NCBI RefSeq assembly: GCF_030167925.1
Contig: NZ_JASKUT010000001.1
Span: forward strand, 1,674,001 to 1,738,000
Reading direction: 5' to 3'
Origin: Paenibacillus silviterrae
Lineage (GTDB): Bacteria; Bacillota; Bacilli; Paenibacillales; NBRC-103111
DNA length: 64,000 bases
The position numbers and the translations under genes are program-made. Within the stretch, counting starts at the first letter, position 1. Every line of letters starts with the position of its first letter. The notes under the pieces were generated by a model. That model saw only the letters and a list, made by a program, of their open reading frames with translations. It ran no database searches and had not been told where the DNA came from. Of this stretch, positions 15,358-62,091 are shown piece by piece.

Positions 15358-17289
15358 TTATTTGTTTTGCGCAATCTGCTCCACCAGCTCCGAAAGCTCC
15401 GCCCAGCGGTCCATCGCCTGCTCCAGCTGTGCCGAAACCTCCTGCTCCTCCCGGTACAAGGTCTGGACCTTGCCGAAGTCACTGCCCGCATTCTCTATGT
15501 CGTTTTTGATTTGCTCCAGCTTCGCTTCCAAGCCGGCGATCTTCCCTTCAATTTCATCCCATTCCTTCTGATCTTTGAAGGACAGCTTCTTCGGCCGACT
15601 GGATTCGCGTCGCTCCGAGGCCTCTTCCTGCTTGCCTGGAGCCGGCTGCTGCTGCGCTGCCTTCCGCCGTTCCTGTTCTTCCACCTGTTTCTCGAGCTGC
15701 TGAGCTTCCATATATTCCGTATAGTTTCCGTGATAACGCCGAATGCGGCCGTCTCCTTCGAATACGAATAGATGATCCGCCGTACGATCGAGGAAATACC
15801 GGTCATGGGAAACGGTGATAACGGCTCCGGGGAAATCGTCTAAATACTCCTCCAGAATGGTCAATGTCTGAATGTCAAGATCATTGGTCGGCTCGTCAAG
15901 CAGCAGCACGTTCGGCTCGCCCATCAGCGTCCGCAGGAGATACAGCCTTCGCTTCTCTCCGCCCGACAGCTTGCCGATCGGCGTCCACTGCAGCGACGGG
16001 GAGAAGAGGAAGCGCTCCAGCATTTGCGCAGCGGTAATGGACTCGCCGTTCGCCGTTCGGATGACCTCGGCCGCTTCCTTAATATACTCGATGACGCGCT
16101 GCTTCTCGTCCATCTCCACATTCTCTTGCGTATAATACGATAGCTTGACCGTAGTACCTACTTCCATCGTGCCGCCGTCCGGCTGCATTCGTCCGGCTAG
16201 CAGATTCAGGAATGTCGACTTCCCCGTTCCGTTCGGTCCGATAATGCCGATTCGGTCTTCCGGCATGACGATATAACTGAAGTCCCGGACAAGCTGCCGG
16301 GAGCCGAAGCTTTTGCTGATGTGATCGAGCTCGATCACCTTCTTGCCGAGCCGGCTTGCCCCGAGCGCCATATCCAGCTTCTCACCAGGACCGTCCGCCT
16401 TGCGGTCCCTCAGCTCGACGACGCGGTCGATCCTTGCCTTCTGCTTCGTCGTCCGCGCCTTTGCGCCGCGGCGCAGCCAGGCAAGCTCCCGGCGAAGCAG
16501 GTTCTGACGCTTATCCTCCTCCGCAGCCTCCCGCTCAAGACGGTCCGCCTTTTTCTCCAGGAAGGCCGCATAGTTGCCCTCATAGCTGTACAGCTTGCCC
16601 CGATCGAGCTCGAAGATGCGGTTCGTTACTCTGTCCAGAAAATATCGGTCGTGGGTAACGAGCAGCAGCGCTCCCTTCCATTTGCTAAGGAAATCCTCCA
16701 GCCACTCCACCGTTTCGTGATCGATATGGTTCGTCGGCTCGTCCAGAATCAGCAGGTCGGCCGGCTGGATAAGTACACGGGCCATAGCTACGCGCTTGCG
16801 CTGCCCGCCCGATAATTGACCTACCTTTTGGGAAAAGTCTGTAATGCCCAGCTTCGTCAAAACGGTCTTCGCGACAGTACCGGCTTCCCAAGCATTGAGG
16901 TTGTCCATTTGCTGCTGGACTCTGAACAGCTTAGACTGCAGCTTTTCATCCTCCGGCTTCAGCTGAAGCTCGGCAAGTGCCCATTCGTACTCTCTCAGCG
17001 CCTGCATGAGCGGCGTATCCCCATGAAACACTTGTTCGAGCACGGTAGACTCCGGATCAAAATCAGGCTGCTGCGGAAGATATTCCACCCGAAAATGATT
17101 CGAGTGGATCAGCTTCCCCTTCTCAATCGGATCCAGTCCCGCTATCACCTTAAGTAAGGATGATTTACCCGTCCCGTTCACACCAACCAAACCGATACGT
17201 TCCTTCTCGTTAATTTGGAAATGGATGTTGTCGAACAACACCTTTTCGCCATAGCTTTTATATAAATTTTCTACCGTAACGATGTTCAA
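15358..17289 (-). CDS. ABC-F family ATPase, YfmR/Uup type
   Basis: A 643-residue twin-cassette ATPase. Walker A motifs are GLVGVNGTGKSSLLKVI and GIIGPNGTGKSTFLNLL; signatures are LSGGQRKRVAMARVL and LSGGEKRRLYLLRTL. After NBD2 there is a charged linker and a C-terminal coiled coil starting KLSFKDQKEWDEIE, the hallmark of the Uup/YfmR branch, which acts on stalled ribosomes and may touch nucleic acid. The frame can only start at TTG 17289 because a stop lies two codons upstream; AAAGGAG is 11 bases before it. An out-of-frame ATG closer to that site opens a 12-codon reading frame. Confidence 0.93.
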   Translation of the reverse strand: MNIVTVENLYKSYGEKVLFDNIHFQINEKERIGLVGVNGTGKSSLLKVIAGLDPIEKGKLIHSNHFRVEYLPQQPDFDPESTVLEQVFHGDTPLMQALREYEWALAELQLKPEDEKLQSKLFRVQQQMDNLNAWEAGTVAKTVLTKLGITDFSQKVGQLSGGQRKRVAMARVLIQPADLLILDEPTNHIDHETVEWLEDFLSKWKGALLLVTHDRYFLDRVTNRIFELDRGKLYSYEGNYAAFLEKKADRLEREAAEEDKRQNLLRRELAWLRRGAKARTTKQKARIDRVVELRDRKADGPGEKLDMALGASRLGKKVIELDHISKSFGSRQLVRDFSYIVMPEDRIGIIGPNGTGKSTFLNLLAGRMQPDGGTMEVGTTVKLSYYTQENVEMDEKQRVIEYIKEAAEVIRTANGESITAAQMLERFLFSPSLQWTPIGKLSGGEKRRLYLLRTLMGEPNVLLLDEPTNDLDIQTLTILEEYLDDFPGAVITVSHDRYFLDRTADHLFVFEGDGRIRRYHGNYTEYMEAQQLEKQVEEQERRKAAQQQPAPGKQEEASERRESSRPKKLSFKDQKEWDEIEGKIAGLEAKLEQIKNDIENAGSDFGKVQTLYREEQEVSAQLEQAMDRWAELSELVEQIAQNK

Positions 17290-36841: not shown

Positions 36842-38338
36842 CTATTCGATAGTGAAGCTCAGCTGCTCATCAGACGACGCCTTGCGCAGCAGGTTGCGTG
36901 ACGTCAGTGACGGCGGCTTCTTATCCGTAACAGCAGCACGGTTCTTCCTGGGGCCATTCCGGCCCAAGCCGGAAAGCTGCTTTCTCTTCAATCGCTCCAG
37001 ACGCTTCTCCAGGTCGGCCGATTCATCCTTGGTCTCCTGCGAGGCCCGGCGCCCCGTCGACGGACCTTTGCCCCGTGTCGAGCGCTTCAAGGCGCTCCGC
37101 TGCCACACCTTATTCAAAGCCTGCTCGGCGTAGCCAATTGCACTTTCATAACATTTTTCCTTATGCTCGTAATACATCGCAAGCTCGACATACGGCTCCA
37201 AGGAACAGGTCGGCTTCTCTCCCTTGAGAGCAATATACCGTTTCCACAAGCGGCAGGCCAGCGCGTATCGTTCCCGCCCCTTGTAATACTGGGCGAGTGG
37301 CAGCAGGCACCCTGTATCCTCAGATACGAGTTCATCCTTCTCGCCGTCTGCTGCTTCCGTCTCAAGCAGCTCATAGGCAAGCTGATCTAGCACCTGCTCC
37401 GCACGCTCGGACAAACCGTTCTTGTCCAGCCAGAGCCCGAAGCGGTAAACCTCCTCGAACCCAAAGGAACGAAGCTCGTGCAGAGGAACACGCCCCTGCA
37501 GCAGGTTGACAAAGTGAATGGCCAAGCCCGCCAGCGACAGCAAATCCAGCTCATTGTGCACGAACACCCCTTGCAGCACGGAAGGATCACGCTCCGCCAA
37601 ATAACGAAAATACAGCTCCGGCGCCAGCGAACCCGGCACATCGTCCTCTCGAAATACCTGAAGCCTCGCTTCCTCTACCTTCCCAAGCCGGCAGGAGGGC
37701 AGCGTATTCCTCCACAAGCTGCGTGACGGATAGAGAAAGTCCAAATGCTCCAGCGGCTCATGCTCCGCCTTCAGCCGGTTCATTACATAACGATTCTTAA
37801 TAATTGGCCAGTCGAACGTCTTCCCGTTGTAGGAAACGAGATACGGATGCTTGGCCAGCTTCTGCTGCAAATAGCAAAGCATGGCGTGCTCTTCACCCGG
37901 ATGGCGGATCAGCATCTGTTCTACCTGGAAGCCGTTGTCAGTGTAATATCCGATCCCGATCATGAAAGGCACATTCCCTGCACCCAAGCCTAAGCCTGTC
38001 GTTTCCGTGTCCAAAAACAGCAGCTGATCGTGCCTGATTCCGTTCGTCTCCACAGCTTGCCTAACCTCACTATCGGACATCAGCAGCTTTAAAGGGCCGG
38101 CTTGTCCGCGGAGATCGTCAATTTCGTATCGGCCGTGCCGCTTACCCTCTTCGTAGACTACACGGCGAAGCACGAAGGAGCCCCATTCGGTCTCGTACAG
38201 CTCCCCTTGGATGACAGCCCACTCGGACGCCGTTACCCGTTCGTCAGCCCGTGGCGCCTCCTTCTCCGCCGCAGCACCCGAACCGCCTGCAGCCTCCCCC
38301 TTCTTGTGCCTCAGCAGCCGTTCCCGAAGCGAGCTCAT
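36842..38338 (-). CDS. mrfB: MrfB-like DEDD exonuclease (YprB)
   Basis: A 498-residue protein. The RNase-H-like exonuclease domain (about 100-280) has LLFLDTETTGLGLGAG (first two acidic residues), YLVSYNGKTFDWPIIKNRY and VHNELDLLSLAGLAIHFVN. The C-terminal half contains TPR-like helices and ends in a basic Lys/Arg-rich tail. With MrfA it excises mitomycin C adducts in Bacillus subtilis independently of UvrABC. GGAGGGAG precedes the ATG at 38338, which overlaps the mrfA stop (ATGA). Downstream is the glycosylase/nfo operon. Confidence 0.92.
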   Translation of the reverse strand: MSSLRERLLRHKKGEAAGGSGAAAEKEAPRADERVTASEWAVIQGELYETEWGSFVLRRVVYEEGKRHGRYEIDDLRGQAGPLKLLMSDSEVRQAVETNGIRHDQLLFLDTETTGLGLGAGNVPFMIGIGYYTDNGFQVEQMLIRHPGEEHAMLCYLQQKLAKHPYLVSYNGKTFDWPIIKNRYVMNRLKAEHEPLEHLDFLYPSRSLWRNTLPSCRLGKVEEARLQVFREDDVPGSLAPELYFRYLAERDPSVLQGVFVHNELDLLSLAGLAIHFVNLLQGRVPLHELRSFGFEEVYRFGLWLDKNGLSERAEQVLDQLAYELLETEAADGEKDELVSEDTGCLLPLAQYYKGRERYALACRLWKRYIALKGEKPTCSLEPYVELAMYYEHKEKCYESAIGYAEQALNKVWQRSALKRSTRGKGPSTGRRASQETKDESADLEKRLERLKRKQLSGLGRNGPRKNRAAVTDKKPPSLTSRNLLRKASSDEQLSFTIE

Positions 38339-40620
38339 CGCGCTCCCTCCGCCTTCTGCAGCAGCGCAAGGGCCAGCTGCTTTCCGGTCAGCCCGACCTC
38401 TTCGATCGGACCGACGCACGCCGGACACCCGCTTAAACAGCCGCAGGAGGAAATCAGCCGCTTCGCTTCCTTCAACAGCTCCCCATGCACCTCGTACAGC
38501 CGCTCGCTTAACCCGACGCCGCCCGGGTAGCGGTCATAAAAGAAGATCGTCGGTTTTTTGTTATGAACCGCCTTGACCTGAGGCACCACGCGAATATCGT
38601 GCGGATCGCACATCAAATAAATCGGAGCAATATGTACCAGCACGTTCGACAAGCCCAGCAAGCCGAATTGCATGTCATTGTTCGTCATGCCCTCCGCCGC
38701 TTCGTCCGAGAATGTAAACCAATAGGAGCTCGTATGCAGCTCCTCCTCCGGCAAATGGATCGGACCGGAACCTATGTTCTCGTGCGTTCTCAGCTTGATT
38801 TTCTTAAAAATCGTCGCCTTCGCATTGACCGTCACCTCGCCAAATTGCCGCTGCAGCCCGAAATCCATCGATTCCCGGTGCACATGCAGCACCTTCAGCT
38901 GCACCGCCAAATTCGCATCCGTGAAATAATCGACGCTCACCTCACGGATGTAGGCCTTCTTCTCCTCATAGTCGAGCTTCTCCACCTGGAACTGAACCCC
39001 TTCATGGATGTAGATCGCTTCCTCGTGCACCATCGTCAAGGCGCTGAAGCGGTCCACTTCGCCGATTACGCGGGCTCCATTCGTCATATCGATGATGATG
39101 ATATTTTCCTGGGCAGCCGAACGAAGAGAAATGTCATGCGCAGGGAACGATTGCTCCATCCAGTACCAGCGGTTCTTCACGCGGTGCAGGATATGCTCCT
39201 CGGTAAGAAACTCCAGAATATCCTTGAGCGATTCGTCTCCGAACTTCTCCCCTTCCTCGAAGGGCAGCTCGTAGGCCGCGCATTTCACATGGTCAACCAG
39301 GATGATCAGGTTATCCGGATGAATTAAGGCCTGCTCCGGCGGCCGCTCGAAGAAAAAGCGGGGGTTCTGGATGATATGCTGGTCCAGCGGGTTGCTGCTC
39401 GCCACCATGAAGGTGATGGAGCTCTCTTGGCGCCGCCCCGCGCGGCCCGACTGCTGCCACGTGCTTGCGATCGTTCCCGGATACCCGTTCAGCACGCAAG
39501 CCTGCAGCTGACCGATATCGATGCCGAGCTCCAGCGCATTCGTGCTGACGACGCCGCGAATCTCGCCGCTGCGCAGTCCCTTCTCGATCTCCCTGCGCAG
39601 CTTCGGCAAATAGCCTCCGCGGTAGCCGCGGATGGACTTGGTGCCCAGCTCGTGTGCAATAAGCTCCTGCAGGTAGGTCAGCAGAATCTCCACGCGCACC
39701 CGGCTGCGTGCAAAGACGATCGTCTGCACCCCCTGCTTCAGCAGCATCCCGGCGATGCGCCGGGTTTCGAGCACGCTGCTCTTGCGGATGCCCAGCTGTT
39801 TATTCACCACAGGCGGATTATAGAACACAAAGTGCTTCTCCCCCGCTGGAGCGCCGTTGCGGTCGACAAGCGCCACCGGCTCTCCGATAAGCCGCTCCGC
39901 GTGCTCCTTCGGGTTGTCGATCGTGGCGGAAGCGCAAATAAACTGTGGATTGGAGCCGTAAAACCGGCAAATCCGCTTCAGCCGCCGAATGACGTTCGCT
40001 ACATGGCTCCCGAACACGCCGCGGTACGAATGCACCTCGTCGATGACGATGAACTTAATATTTTCAAACAGCTTGACCCACTTCGTATGATGAGGAAGAA
40101 TAGCGGAATGCAGCATGTCGGGGTTCGTTACAACGATATGTCCGGCGTTGCGGATGGCCTGCCGAACCGTCGGCGGGGTATCGCCGTCATAGGTATGCGT
40201 CTTGATATCGACTTCCATCTTGTTCACGATTTCGTGAAGCTCCGCCACCTGATCCTGCGCCAGCGCCTTCGTAGGAAACAAATAGAGCGCCCGCGCGCTC
40301 TCGTTGTTCAATATGCCCTGCAGCACCGGCAGGTTGTAGCACAGTGTCTTGCCGGAGGCAGTCGGCGTTACGGTTACGACGTGCCTGCCGGCTGCCACCT
40401 CGCGGAACGAAGCGGCCTGATGCGTATATAAGCGATGGATGCCCTTGGACGCCAGCCCCTCCCGGAGCAGCGGGTGCAGCCCATCGGGAAAGTCGTCATA
40501 CTGTCCCTCCCGCGGAGGAATCGTATGCCAGTGGGTCACCTGCTCCATCAGCTCGGGGGTGTTGCGGATCAGTTCGATCATTTCATCTATAGAAGAAACC
40601 TTACCCGTTAAACGGTTCAT
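38335..40620 (-). CDS. mrfA: MrfA-like DEXH helicase (YprA)
   Basis: A 761-residue superfamily 2 helicase. Motif I VTPTASGKTLCYNL, motif II FIVIDEVHSYRG (DEVH), motif III ICASATIDNP, motif VI GTIASTWQQSGRAGRRQ. The C-terminal DUF1998-type domain carries a four-cysteine cluster in SSCGCLSGCPACVGPIEE. In Bacillus subtilis MrfA unwinds DNA for removal of mitomycin adducts. The ATG at 40620 follows AGAGGTG; an in-frame GTG lies inside that site. A near-consensus promoter with an SOS-type element lies just upstream, overlapping the end of a carotenoid gene. Confidence 0.93.
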   Translation of the reverse strand: MNRLTGKVSSIDEMIELIRNTPELMEQVTHWHTIPPREGQYDDFPDGLHPLLREGLASKGIHRLYTHQAASFREVAAGRHVVTVTPTASGKTLCYNLPVLQGILNNESARALYLFPTKALAQDQVAELHEIVNKMEVDIKTHTYDGDTPPTVRQAIRNAGHIVVTNPDMLHSAILPHHTKWVKLFENIKFIVIDEVHSYRGVFGSHVANVIRRLKRICRFYGSNPQFICASATIDNPKEHAERLIGEPVALVDRNGAPAGEKHFVFYNPPVVNKQLGIRKSSVLETRRIAGMLLKQGVQTIVFARSRVRVEILLTYLQELIAHELGTKSIRGYRGGYLPKLRREIEKGLRSGEIRGVVSTNALELGIDIGQLQACVLNGYPGTIASTWQQSGRAGRRQESSITFMVASSNPLDQHIIQNPRFFFERPPEQALIHPDNLIILVDHVKCAAYELPFEEGEKFGDESLKDILEFLTEEHILHRVKNRWYWMEQSFPAHDISLRSAAQENIIIIDMTNGARVIGEVDRFSALTMVHEEAIYIHEGVQFQVEKLDYEEKKAYIREVSVDYFTDANLAVQLKVLHVHRESMDFGLQRQFGEVTVNAKATIFKKIKLRTHENIGSGPIHLPEEELHTSSYWFTFSDEAAEGMTNNDMQFGLLGLSNVLVHIAPIYLMCDPHDIRVVPQVKAVHNKKPTIFFYDRYPGGVGLSERLYEVHGELLKEAKRLISSCGCLSGCPACVGPIEEVGLTGKQLALALLQKAEGAR

Positions 40621-40654: not shown

Positions 40655-40683
40655 ATTATATCGAATGCATGTTCGCAGTTCAA
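40655..40683 (-). promoter_or_regulatory. Predicted mrfA promoter with LexA-like box
   Basis: On the minus strand TTGAAC (40678-40683) and TATAAT (40655-40660) are 17 bases apart. Plus-strand CGAATGCATGTTCG at 40662-40675, inside the spacer, differs from the Gram-positive LexA consensus CGAAC-N4-GTTCG at one base. This predicts SOS control of mrfAB. Confidence 0.65.
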
Positions 40684-42167
40684 TGCATAATTTCCCTCTG
40701 CCTTTCCATAAATTCTGCCAGCAGGCGCGCGCCCTGCATGATAATCGGCACACCTCCGCCAGGATGAATCGATGCTCCTACCGCGAACAGCCGTTTGATC
40801 CCATAAGGCTGCACCTGGGGCCGGAACACTCCGGATTGCCGCAGCGTAGGCGCCAAGCCGAAGCTTCCGCCTTGATATAAGCCCTCCTGCTTCGCTTCAT
40901 GCGGAGTTCTTACCTTGCGCCACTCCACAGCCTGCCGCAAACCGGGAAAACCGCGCCGTTCAAGCTCCTCCAGTATCCTGTCGGCAAATGCCTCGCGCAT
41001 CGTCTCCCATGCCCCCCCGTCGCCCGACGGCACAGGGACAAGCACATACAGGACCCCTTTGCCCGGGGGAGCCAGGGAGCTGTCGATCAGCGATGGATGA
41101 AAGGTGTAAAGGCACGGATGCTCAGGAACGATTTTCGATACAAACACATCCTTCAGCATCTCGGCAAACCGGTCCGTAAAGAAGAATTGGTGTACGGAAG
41201 CCGACTCGTAAACACGGTTAAGTCCTAAATACATGAGGAAGCACCCGGAGGACGGCTCATACGCTTTGGCCATTCCCCATCCTTTCCCTCTCTGCCCGCC
41301 AAGCAATGCACGGGTCATGGGAAAATCGCCGTTCAGCACCACCTGGTCAAATGCCCACGACACGCCCTTAGCACGTATCCCGTAACACTCGCCGTCCCTG
41401 ACGAGCACCTGCTCCACAGCGGTATTGAGCCTCACCTCCACACCCCGTTCCTCCAGCAGCTGCGCCAGCTTCCCGATCATGCCCGCATAGCCGCCCTTCA
41501 CATACCAGATCCCGTGCGCATGCTCGGAAAAGGGAATCAACGAATACAACGCAGGAGTAGCTTCCGGATTTCCTCCGATGTATAACGTTTGAAACGAGTA
41601 AGCCTCCCGCAGCCGGGAAGCGTGGAAAAATCGCGCGACATCCTGCCGTACCGAGGAATAAGCCTTCAGCTTCACCAACGACCTTACGTTGCCGGGAGTC
41701 CAGAAATCGCGCTTTCTTACGAAATCCTTACTCAAGAACTGCTTATACCCCAAATTGAACCGCTCCTGCATCACTTCCATGTAGTTCAGAAAGGAGCCGC
41801 CTTCACCAGGAAACATTCGTTCGATCTCAAGTGCCATCCGGCGTTTGTCTGTCCACTTTGTGAGCGTCCGTCCGTCCTCGAAATGAATGCGGTAGAGCGG
41901 GTCCACCTGCTGAAACTCGAAAAGGTTCGGGTCTACGCCTGCGGCTTGCAGCGCTCCGCGAATCATGCCGGGCAGCAGCACAATGGTCGGTCCCTGATCG
42001 ATTCGAAAGCCTTTCACCGACTCATAGGCCATCCGTCCTCCGAGCCGCGAGCCCTTTTCCAATACCGTCACCTTATGGCCCCGGTACGAGAGCAGCAAAG
42101 CCGCGGTCAAGCCCCCAATCCCGCCGCCGACGATGGCAATTTTACGAGATTCCCGCTTCACCATCAT
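40680..42167 (-). CDS. CrtN-type carotenoid desaturase
   Basis: A 495-residue FAD-dependent desaturase. Dinucleotide motif IAIVGGGIGGLTAALLLS and GSRLGGRM at the N-terminus, DQGPTIVLLPGMI, the CrtN-like FQTLYIGGNPEATPALYSLI and WYVKGGYAGM, and C-terminal FAVGASIHPGGGVPIIMQGA. It resembles staphylococcal CrtN (4,4'-diapophytoene desaturase) more closely than CrtP. GGAGGTG precedes the ATG, which overlaps the upstream crt gene stop. Its stop codon lies within the mrfA promoter. Confidence 0.88.
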   Translation of the reverse strand: MMVKRESRKIAIVGGGIGGLTAALLLSYRGHKVTVLEKGSRLGGRMAYESVKGFRIDQGPTIVLLPGMIRGALQAAGVDPNLFEFQQVDPLYRIHFEDGRTLTKWTDKRRMALEIERMFPGEGGSFLNYMEVMQERFNLGYKQFLSKDFVRKRDFWTPGNVRSLVKLKAYSSVRQDVARFFHASRLREAYSFQTLYIGGNPEATPALYSLIPFSEHAHGIWYVKGGYAGMIGKLAQLLEERGVEVRLNTAVEQVLVRDGECYGIRAKGVSWAFDQVVLNGDFPMTRALLGGQRGKGWGMAKAYEPSSGCFLMYLGLNRVYESASVHQFFFTDRFAEMLKDVFVSKIVPEHPCLYTFHPSLIDSSLAPPGKGVLYVLVPVPSGDGGAWETMREAFADRILEELERRGFPGLRQAVEWRKVRTPHEAKQEGLYQGGSFGLAPTLRQSGVFRPQVQPYGIKRLFAVGASIHPGGGVPIIMQGARLLAEFMERQREIMH

Positions 42168-43687
42168 AGGCTGCCACCTCCGACCGATTGCAGTTCTCCC
42201 TGCGATGCGCCATGCTTCTTAAGAATGCCCCGAACCGTAATGCGCGCCGATTCCATAATGGTAGGCAGGCCGCTGCCGGGATGCGTTCCACCGCCGACCA
42301 GCCAGCAGCCGTCCAGCTCCTCGTACCGGTTATGGGGACGTAAGTACATCATTTGCGTCAAATGGTGTGCGAGATTGAAGGTCGCCCCTTCAAACACATG
42401 ATGCTTTCTCTCCCAGTCCAAGGGAGTAATCATATGTTCTACTTCAATGTGCTCCTCCAAATCGGCAAATCCGCCCTCCGTCATGACCTTCTCCAGCACG
42501 CGTTTGCGAAAATCCTCCTTCTCCAGCTCCCACCGAATCCCGCTTTGATTGTTAGGGACCGGGGCGAGCACGTAGATCGCAGATTTCCCTTGCGGAGCCA
42601 GTGTCGGGTCCGTGACGGAGCCATTCTGCACATAAACCGAAGGATCGGCGGAGAGAACCTTGGTTTTGGCGATCTCTTCGACATTTTGCTTATAATCCTT
42701 GGCAAACAGAATGGTATGATGCGGCAAATCGTAGGTCCGCTTCACGCCAAGGTACAGCATGAAGGTAGAGCAGGAGTAATTTTTCTTCCTCAGCCTCGCT
42801 TCCGTATACTTGCCCGATGCGGCCGGATCCACCAGCGTGGACATGGCGTTCGCAAAATCCGCATTGACTATGACTTCATCGGCGTACCGATCCTCCCCCT
42901 CCTCCATTTCAATACCGATCACTCCGCGGTCCGCCGTAATCAACCGCTTCACTCCCTTACCCAGATGAATCCTCCCCCCATGTTCACGAACGACATTTCC
43001 CATGGCCTCCGTGATTCGATGCAAGCCGCCGATCGGATGATAAATTCCGTAAGCATGCTCGATATAGGAAAGAATGGAGAACGCTCCCGGACATTCCCAA
43101 GGCGACATCCCCAAATATTTGGACTGAAAGGTAAACGCAAGCCGCAGCCGCTCGTCGTCAAAATATTCCGAGAGACACTTATACAGGCTTTGGGTCAAGG
43201 TCAGCTTAGGAAGTGCCTTCAGAAACCTCGGATGCAAATAATCGAGCAGGGAATCATGCTTATTTTGCAAAATCGGCAGAAGCGCTTCCAGCTTCCGGGA
43301 CTCTTGCTGCAGGAAGCGTTCATAGCCCTCCTCATTCCCAGGAAACATCCTTGTAATTTCCCGTATCATTTGTACAGGTTCCTTATATACATAGAAGGGA
43401 GCCCCTTCAAATACAAGCCGATAGAAGGGTTCAATCGGCACCAGCTTGACGTAATCGTGAACGGAGCGTCCCGACTCTCGAAAGAGCTCCTCCAGAATAT
43501 GGGGCATATTTAAAAAGGTCGGACCACGATCGAAACGATATTCGCCCAGCTGCAGGCCGGAGGTTCTTCCGCCCAAGTAGTGCATTTTCTCGAACACATC
43601 GACCTCGTAGCCTTTCGAGGCCAGCAGCATGGCCGCCGAAAGCCCGCCAGGTCCCGCACCGACGATAATGACCTTGCGCTTGTTCAT
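42164..43687 (-). CDS. CrtN/CrtI-type carotenoid desaturase
   Basis: A 507-residue FAD-dependent desaturase. Motif VIIVGAGPGGLSAAMLLAS, then FDRGPTFLNMPHIL, FTFQSKYLGMSPWECPG, YGIYHPIGGLHRI and MYLRPHNRYEELDGCWLVG followed by GGTHPGSGLPTIMESARI. The last two are typical of Bacillus-type CrtNa/CrtI-like enzymes. It may introduce conjugated double bases into diapophytoene or act as the second desaturase of the pair. ATG at 43687 chosen with GGGAG ahead. First gene of the minus-strand carotenoid arm. Confidence 0.86.
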   Translation of the reverse strand: MNKRKVIIVGAGPGGLSAAMLLASKGYEVDVFEKMHYLGGRTSGLQLGEYRFDRGPTFLNMPHILEELFRESGRSVHDYVKLVPIEPFYRLVFEGAPFYVYKEPVQMIREITRMFPGNEEGYERFLQQESRKLEALLPILQNKHDSLLDYLHPRFLKALPKLTLTQSLYKCLSEYFDDERLRLAFTFQSKYLGMSPWECPGAFSILSYIEHAYGIYHPIGGLHRITEAMGNVVREHGGRIHLGKGVKRLITADRGVIGIEMEEGEDRYADEVIVNADFANAMSTLVDPAASGKYTEARLRKKNYSCSTFMLYLGVKRTYDLPHHTILFAKDYKQNVEEIAKTKVLSADPSVYVQNGSVTDPTLAPQGKSAIYVLAPVPNNQSGIRWELEKEDFRKRVLEKVMTEGGFADLEEHIEVEHMITPLDWERKHHVFEGATFNLAHHLTQMMYLRPHNRYEELDGCWLVGGGTHPGSGLPTIMESARITVRGILKKHGASQGELQSVGGGSL

Positions 43688-43716
43688 GTTCGCCATCTCC
43701 CGGATAGTCATTTATT

Positions 43717-60959: not shown

Positions 60960-61325
60960 TCACGGCAGCAGCAGCTTCTGCCCCACATTAACATTACTGT
61001 TCTTCAGCCCGTTCATCTTCCTCAGCTCATGCACATAATTACGAACATCAGTTCCCCTTGCTGCGTGTTCGGTAGCAATCGACCATAACGTCTCCCCTTG
61101 ATCCACGATAACCACAGCCTGCTCGGGCTCATTTTCAGTCGCAGCATAAGCGTCCTGATCGCCGAACAGCGAAGCACCGAAGGCTCCGAAGGATAAGAAA
61201 AGCAATAAGGCCGTCACGGTAAAGATCACACGAGCATTTAAGCCGTTGTTCTTCTTCTTGCTATGTAACTGCTTAGACTCGTCAGCAGAATTGTATTTAC
61301 GAATAAGAGTAGGATTTTGAATCAT
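60960..61325 (-). CDS. yneA: YneA-like LysM cell-division suppressor
   Basis: A 121-residue single-pass membrane protein: basic N-terminus, one membrane helix (ARVIFTVTALLLFLSFGAF), and a C-terminal LysM domain that begins VVIVDQGETLWSIATEHA and ends NGLKNSNVNVGQKLLLP. In Bacillus subtilis YneA is induced by the SOS response, is secreted or anchored, and delays cell division during DNA damage. ATG at 61325 follows GGCGG; the longer frame to 61358 overlaps a LexA box. Divergent from lexA and monocistronic. Confidence 0.9.
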   Translation of the reverse strand: MIQNPTLIRKYNSADESKQLHSKKKNNGLNARVIFTVTALLLFLSFGAFGASLFGDQDAYAATENEPEQAVVIVDQGETLWSIATEHAARGTDVRNYVHELRKMNGLKNSNVNVGQKLLLP

Positions 61326-61338
61326 GAGTAACCGCCCC

Positions 61339-61425
61339 CAAACATTTGTTCTGTTCATAATATAACACGAACAAATGTTTGTGTCAACGATTTTTCGAAC
61401 TCATGTTTGTACGAACTCCGGTTCT
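61339..61425. promoter_or_regulatory. Four LexA (SOS) boxes in yneA-lexA control region
   Basis: Relative to CGAAC-N4-GTTCG: box 1 at 61339-61352 (CAAACATTTGTTCT, two changes), box 2 at 61368-61381 (CGAACAAATGTTTG, one), box 3 at 61396-61409 (CGAACTCATGTTTG, one), box 4 at 61412-61425 (CGAACTCCGGTTCT, one). Box 2 sits in the yneA promoter spacer; boxes 3 and 4 overlap the lexA promoter. Confidence 0.85.
61359..61387 (-). promoter_or_regulatory. Predicted sigma-A promoter of yneA
   Basis: On the minus strand a perfect TTGACA (61382-61387) and TATATT (61359-61364) are 17 bases apart, with LexA box 2 filling most of the spacer. Confidence 0.85.
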
Positions 61426-61470: not shown

Positions 61471-62091
61471 ATGAGCAAGATTTCCAACCGCCAACAGGCG
61501 ATTTTGGATTTCATTAAGAATGAAGTTCGGGACAAGGGGTATCCCCCTTCGGTTAGAGAGATCGGCGAAGCGGTCGGACTCGCTTCCAGCTCCACGGTAC
61601 ACGGACATCTGGAGCGGTTGGAGAAGAAGGGGTTAATTCGCCGCGACCCTACCAAGCCGCGGGCTATCGAGATTTTGGACGGTACGGAGAATGACGGCGC
61701 TTATTCGGTGTCCGTTGCCCGCGTGCCTTTAATCGGACGAGTTACGGCAGGCGTCCCGATCACCGCTACGGAGAACATAGAGGATTACTTCCCTCTGCCA
61801 AGCCACTTCGTTGGCGACAATAAGGTTTTTATGCTCAGCGTCATCGGGGATAGCATGATTGAGGCCGGCATTCACAACGGGGACTATGTCATCGTCCGCC
61901 AGCAGCAGACCGCGAATAACGGAGAGATCGTGGTGGCTATGACAGAGGAAGACGAGGCTACGGTAAAAACCTTCTATAAGGAAAAGGATCACATTCGACT
62001 TCAGCCGGAGAATCCTGCACTGGAGCCGATCCGCTTGAAGCATGTCACCATTCTCGGCAAAGTCATCGGCCTCTTTAGAGATATTCATTAA
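61471..62091 (+). CDS. lexA: SOS repressor LexA
   Basis: A 206-residue repressor. Winged helix-turn-helix at residues 1-70 ([23 protein letters not shown]), RecA-stimulated self-cleavage site at A93-G94 (GRVTAGVPI), and the S24 protease dyad S128 (IGDSMIEAG) and K166 (ATVKTF). Length and dyad match Bacillus LexA. GGAG lies ahead of ATG 61471; the TTG in frame at 61456 falls inside that site. Regulates the divergent yneA and probably mrfA. Confidence 0.97.

Follow-up and report, generated by a model that had tools for sequence, protein, structure and literature searches.

The question raised by this locus is whether the DNA repair genes mrfA and mrfB are under the control of the SOS repressor LexA. 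For Bacillus subtilis, the excerpts of PMC11194089 describe MrfAB (YprAB) as a system for mitomycin-adduct repair which is independent of UvrABC, and repair functions of MrfAB are described in the excerpts of PMC12458937 as well. Comparison with relatives and with the SOS sites of the same genome suggests that a 14-bp site between the -35 and -10 hexamers of a sigma-A-type mrfAB promoter is very probably a LexA operator, which would repress the promoter until SOS induction, and the mrfAB repair route would probably be switched on by DNA damage.

The mrfAB genes and their promoter

The mrfA (yprA) gene was located on the minus strand (38335..40620) of the window, which is the whole stretch of 64,000 nucleotides analysed. 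It encoded an SF2 DNA helicase with DEAD, Helicase_C, WHD_HRQ1 and MZB domains, so that the helicase core typical of SF2, the winged helix and the Zn-binding MZB module of MrfA were all present. The adjoining mrfB (yprB, 36842..38338, minus strand) encoded a DnaQ-like exonuclease with an RNase_H_2 domain. MrfAB of B. subtilis likewise consists of an MZB/HRQ1-winged-helix helicase and a DnaQ-like exonuclease encoded by adjacent genes. MrfA of the window was 62% identical to YprA of PDB entry 6znp, the sole solved structure for MrfA at E up to 1e-50. On reading the sequence, the best mrfA start was ATG 40620 behind GAGAGGTG, about 35 nt past the -10 hexamer, and the mrfB start (ATG 38338) overlapped the mrfA stop as ATGA, so mrfA and mrfB probably form one operon. 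MrfB was encoded directly downstream of mrfA in 74/76 full-length loci among the best 80 of a locus set of 175.

A minus-strand promoter TTGAAC-N17-TATAAT just before mrfA, as the sequence-only reading had proposed, was seen at 40683-40655, with the -35 hexamer TTGAAC at 40678..40683 and the -10 hexamer TATAAT at 40655..40660, separated by a spacer of 17 nt. The hexamers matched at 10/12 positions in a promoter scan of a 2.5-kb stretch at mrfA, in which three promoter-like sites were found versus 1.0 expected. The spacer was occupied by the 14-bp near-palindrome CGAATGCATGTTCG at 40662-40675, predicted to be a LexA operator (SOS box) and read as CGAACATGCATTCG on the minus strand towards mrfA. 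The earlier description of this box as one base off the Firmicute LexA consensus was exact, with one mismatch from CGAACRNRYGTTCG, and the mrfA promoter region thus carried a LexA-type operator.

Two crtI-family desaturase ORFs (40680-43711) were located directly upstream of mrfA. The TGA stop (40682-40680) of the nearer one, a phytoene-desaturase-like ORF (40680-42167), fell within the -35 hexamer, which bears out the overlap of the promoter with the end of a carotenoid gene that had been pointed out before. Read-through from these ORFs into mrfAB is possible. The crt genes of the window were found in 0/80 loci (best 80 of 175), each of which reached 3 kb upstream, and the box was retained there, so the neighbour of mrfA changes while the box stays. 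A second box-like site (40784-40797, 14.5 bits) was regarded as chance, since it lay inside a crt ORF absent from 80/80 loci.

Reference operators at lexA and recA

The SOS operators of Bacilli, at recA and lexA/yneA, have the consensus CGAAC-N4-GTTCG, as cited in the excerpts of PMC4551915. A presumed repressor gene, lexA, with LexA_DNA_bind and Peptidase_S24 domains was identified on the plus strand of the window (61471..62091). Reference operators were seen at 61339, 61368 and 61396, with a weaker one at 61412 (61339..61425 in all), between lexA and a divergent ORF with a LysM domain. This yneA-like ORF of 132 aa (60960-61425) had the box array in common with lexA. The genome possessed RecA together with a LexA that has both DNA-binding and S24 autoprotease domains, and lexA and recA were present in 98/98 family genomes searched. 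When boxes with at least 8/10 core bases were counted in 30 lexA loci, including that of the window, four boxes were found in 28 loci and five in two, unlike the site at mrfA. One lexA-region operator took the form CGAAC-N4-ATTCT in 5/30 loci of relatives.

The recA operator of the family was CGAATGTATGTTCG in 26/30 recA loci, CGAATATATGTTCG in 3/30 and CGAATGTATGTTCT in 1/30. The same 14-bp palindrome was present at mrfA, and in the genome of the window CGAATGTATGTTCG at recA and CGAATGCATGTTCG at mrfA were only one central base apart, so the mrfA box has the local recA form and resembles the operators which its own genome carries at recA and lexA. The mismatch counted in the sequence-only reading was real, but it is not a defect, since 26/30 family recA upstreams have an operator of this form. 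The two sites differ in placement, as the recA operator was read upstream of the recA -35 whereas the mrfA box was located in the -35/-10 spacer.

Frequency of the box in one genome

Matches to the consensus with at most two mismatches numbered 24 versus 9.7 expected, a count in which near-palindromes were taken on both strands and several were lexA operators. The pattern CGAAYRNRYGTTYG gave 16 matches in the 7.4-Mb genome, the same number as the reversed pattern used as a control. Many of these 16 matches fell inside ORFs; four were found at recA, at lexA, at mrfA and ahead of a Y-family polymerase operon. With a scoring matrix derived from recA and lexA operators of relatives (32 distinct sites, none of them from mrfA), the mrfA box scored 15.6 bits. 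Five sites of at least 15.3 bits were present in the window, three at lexA, one at mrfA and one at 17025, the last lying inside an ABC-F-like ORF and so regarded as chance. Taken alone, the box match in one genome is weak evidence, hardly more than chance could give. It is the placement in a promoter and the conservation in relatives that raise the mrfA box above chance.

Conservation of the box within the order

The mrfA gene was found in 24/25 genus, 96/98 family and 117/198 order genomes. Two MrfA lineages were distinguished, clade A being 73-89% and clade B 59-64% identical to MrfA of the window. A total of 121 order-level mrfA upstreams, 120 from relatives and that of the window, were scanned within 260 bp. 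Outside the family, 25/30 order-level matches were used (G103, G175, G179, G197 and G204 were left out), and G016 was also left out, its mrfA being split by internal stops. Sites reaching 13 bits were found in 85/86 clade A upstreams versus 0.7/86 in shuffled sequences, and in 25/35 clade B upstreams, a weaker signal, versus 0.2/35; the genomes are related, so these counts are not independent events.

In the locus set, 77 of the best 80 of 175 loci were counted (L199, L214 and L216 were truncated or had another start). A site at -150 to -30 was found in 70/77 of them versus 0.6 predicted from the rate elsewhere in the same loci (38 sites in 625,066 bases), the locus set overlapping in part with the genome set and not being independent of it. 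Of the seven loci without such a site, three had one just outside, at -192, -24 and -23. Conservation in relatives, on which the sequence-only reading had staked its claim, was in this way borne out (85/86 clade A upstreams and 70/77 loci).

The surroundings of the box were also regular in clade A. TAnnAT followed it directly in 84/86 upstreams, and TTG was present 6-12 nt ahead of it in 63/86. In the 23 others the -35 place read, by inspection, TAGACA in 17, TTCACA in two, TTCCCA in two and CTACCA in one, and in the last (G035) the best site lay elsewhere. Among 56 upstreams with dissimilar flanks, information per column was 1.49 bits in the box versus 0.16 in the 60 bp upstream and 0.37 in the 40 bp downstream. 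The half next to the -10 was ATTC, not GTTC, in 84/86 clade A upstreams and in 29/35 of the class-level sites. At clade B mrfA a LexA-like box could follow the -10 (GGAACAATCGTTCT), which fits an operator able to change position.

Relics of clade A mrfA were observed ahead of some clade B mrfA genes. They were clear in G034, G049 and G001, with alignment scores of 57, 35 and 33 versus shuffled maxima of 16 to 17.5 (three shuffles each), and marginal in G044, G057 and G091, with 20-22 versus 14-15 shuffled. None were seen in the remaining clade B upstreams (35 in all, of which the best 14 were listed). In the three clear cases (L112 of G034, L099 of G049 and L104 of G001) a degenerate fragment from the 5' end of clade A mrfA was left between the old box and the clade B mrfA, as if the native gene had been displaced in situ by a foreign mrfA.

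Other families of the class and Bacillus

In the class-level search mrfA was found in 157/299 genomes, and 60 upstreams were hand-picked across 26 other families. Of these, 35/60 reached 13 bits versus 0.8 shuffled, and a site was found at a threshold of 12.5 bits in 39/60 versus 1.0 shuffled. At least one 13-bit site was present in 18/26 families. A 13-bit site was missing in 25/60 class-level upstreams, and none was found in the families f12, f13, f25, f26, f33, f39, f40 and f46, each represented by one to five upstreams. For f39, three of five upstreams had a diverged CGAAC-N4-TTTCG close to the usual position, namely CGAACGTNCTTTCG in L231, L234 and L237, which perhaps reflects a changed LexA specificity.

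In the Bacillus genus (the genus of G421) mrfA was present in 38/44 genomes. In the 30 of these 38 matches that were examined, three of which also belonged to the class set, the box CAAACAAATATTCG was invariant (30/30 loci) and was located just ahead of TAMACT, with no good -35 before it in these 30 loci. A CTAG-containing motif was conserved directly before the Bacillus box, at around -100 relative to the aligned start of mrfA (L386-L411, L296-L298 and L301). MrfA of G600, a genome of this genus, was 100% identical over 732 residues to YprA of 6znp, which we take to be the B. subtilis protein, and on the plain reading G600 would be a genome of the B. subtilis group.

The class-level boxes (35/60) and the Bacillus boxes (30/30) rule out a lineage-specific SOS capture of mrfAB. 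The sequence-only reading had placed mrfAB under SOS control in this lineage; the control itself is well supported by comparison, but it would not be special to the lineage, the box being present in other families and in Bacillus.

Alternative explanations of the conserved box

Chance resemblance is one alternative for this genome, where the 16 strict matches only equalled the reversed-pattern control and a window site of equal score lay inside a coding ORF. The single-genome match is indeed not significant, but 70/77 loci and 85/86 clade A upstreams have a site at about the same position, which refutes a chance match, and the probability left to it is negligible. A second alternative is that the conserved block belongs to the promoter, as an unusual spacer or within a site for an alternative sigma factor, and is not an operator. 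In its favour, the clade A block keeps one polarity and a fixed place between -35-like and -10 hexamers, and in Bacillus the -35 is poor and yet the CTAG motif ahead of the box is conserved. Against this, the hexamers which flank the block are ordinary (TTG in 63/86, TAnnAT in 84/86, and TAGACA in 17 of the 23 without TTG), and most of the conservation sits in the palindromic halves. Since recA carries the same sequence upstream of its -35, and since in some genomes LexA-type boxes were located downstream of the -10 or close to the start codon, an element serving the promoter only is improbable.

Another repressor or activator which recognizes GAAC-N4-ATTC could be imagined from the steady ATTC half-site, and in some families the only form is a diverged one, e.g. 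CGAACGTGCTTTCG. However, the same form was present at recA of the same family and, as CGAAC-N4-ATTCT, in one lexA-region operator of 5/30 relatives, and the matrix built from LexA targets detected the box without having been trained on it. A regulator other than LexA is thus quite unlikely, because the box matches the recA operator. LexA remains the preferred regulator of mrfAB. What counts against LexA is the steady ATTC half, which departs from CGAAC-N4-GTTCG, together with the 25/60 class-level misses, the weaker signal of clade B and the poor -35 in Bacillus.

Possible SOS control of mrfAB

The site, the geometry of its promoter, its conservation, its likeness to the recA operator and the presence of lexA and recA were established here, and from them we infer LexA binding, repression and damage induction at mrfAB, as well as an old age of the mrfA box in Bacilli. 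In intact DNA, a LexA dimer on the mrfA box would keep RNA polymerase off. When DNA is damaged, RecA filaments would bring about self-cleavage of LexA and the mrfAB promoter would open; MrfA helicase and MrfB exonuclease would then be made and remove mitomycin-type adducts. As a guess, the ATTC half beside the -10 may lower the affinity for LexA, which would allow basal expression or early release.

A wider reading, to which we give about even chances, is that in much of Bacilli, B. subtilis included, MrfAB would be an SOS operon that is both old and core, and which went unnoticed because its operator is nearly always the off-consensus ATTC form. In the same reading the recA-like asymmetric operator in the spacer would be a tuned early-release SOS box, and in some genomes a foreign mrfA would have replaced the native gene behind the old SOS promoter.

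The B. subtilis SOS survey of Au et al. in 2005 reportedly detected binding of LexA ahead of 54 genes; B. subtilis yprA may already be listed there as an SOS gene. The new part would be the extent of the SOS box at mrfAB across the class. Among the literature matches listed, neither a link of mrfAB/yprAB to LexA nor transcript evidence of RecA/LexA-dependent mrfAB induction was found. Neither "SOS" nor "LexA" is mentioned in PMC11194089 or PMC12458937. In PMC6051672, PMC1976550, PMC12345164, PMC13192584 and PMC13388538, mrfA/yprA and LexA both occur, and the excerpts do not connect them; yprA and yprB appear in a table of Tn-seq genes in the excerpt of PMC6051672. PMC3979655, also among the matches listed for mrfAB/yprAB and LexA, is a plant study.

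If LexA targets the mrfAB promoter in much of the class, this repair route would belong to the SOS programme, and RecA and LexA would set the level of MrfAB in damaged cells. With its steady departure from the consensus, the mrfA box would also be a natural example in which to ask how operator form sets SOS timing.

Tandem SOS boxes at a Y-family polymerase gene

Tandem SOS boxes (L013 1501-1514 and L014 1501-1514; G000:C1:1088737 and 1088768) preceded a Y-family polymerase gene, and an ORF of 123 aa without a Pfam match was also located behind them. The first of the two boxes, like that of mrfA, was placed between -35-like and -10-like sequences.
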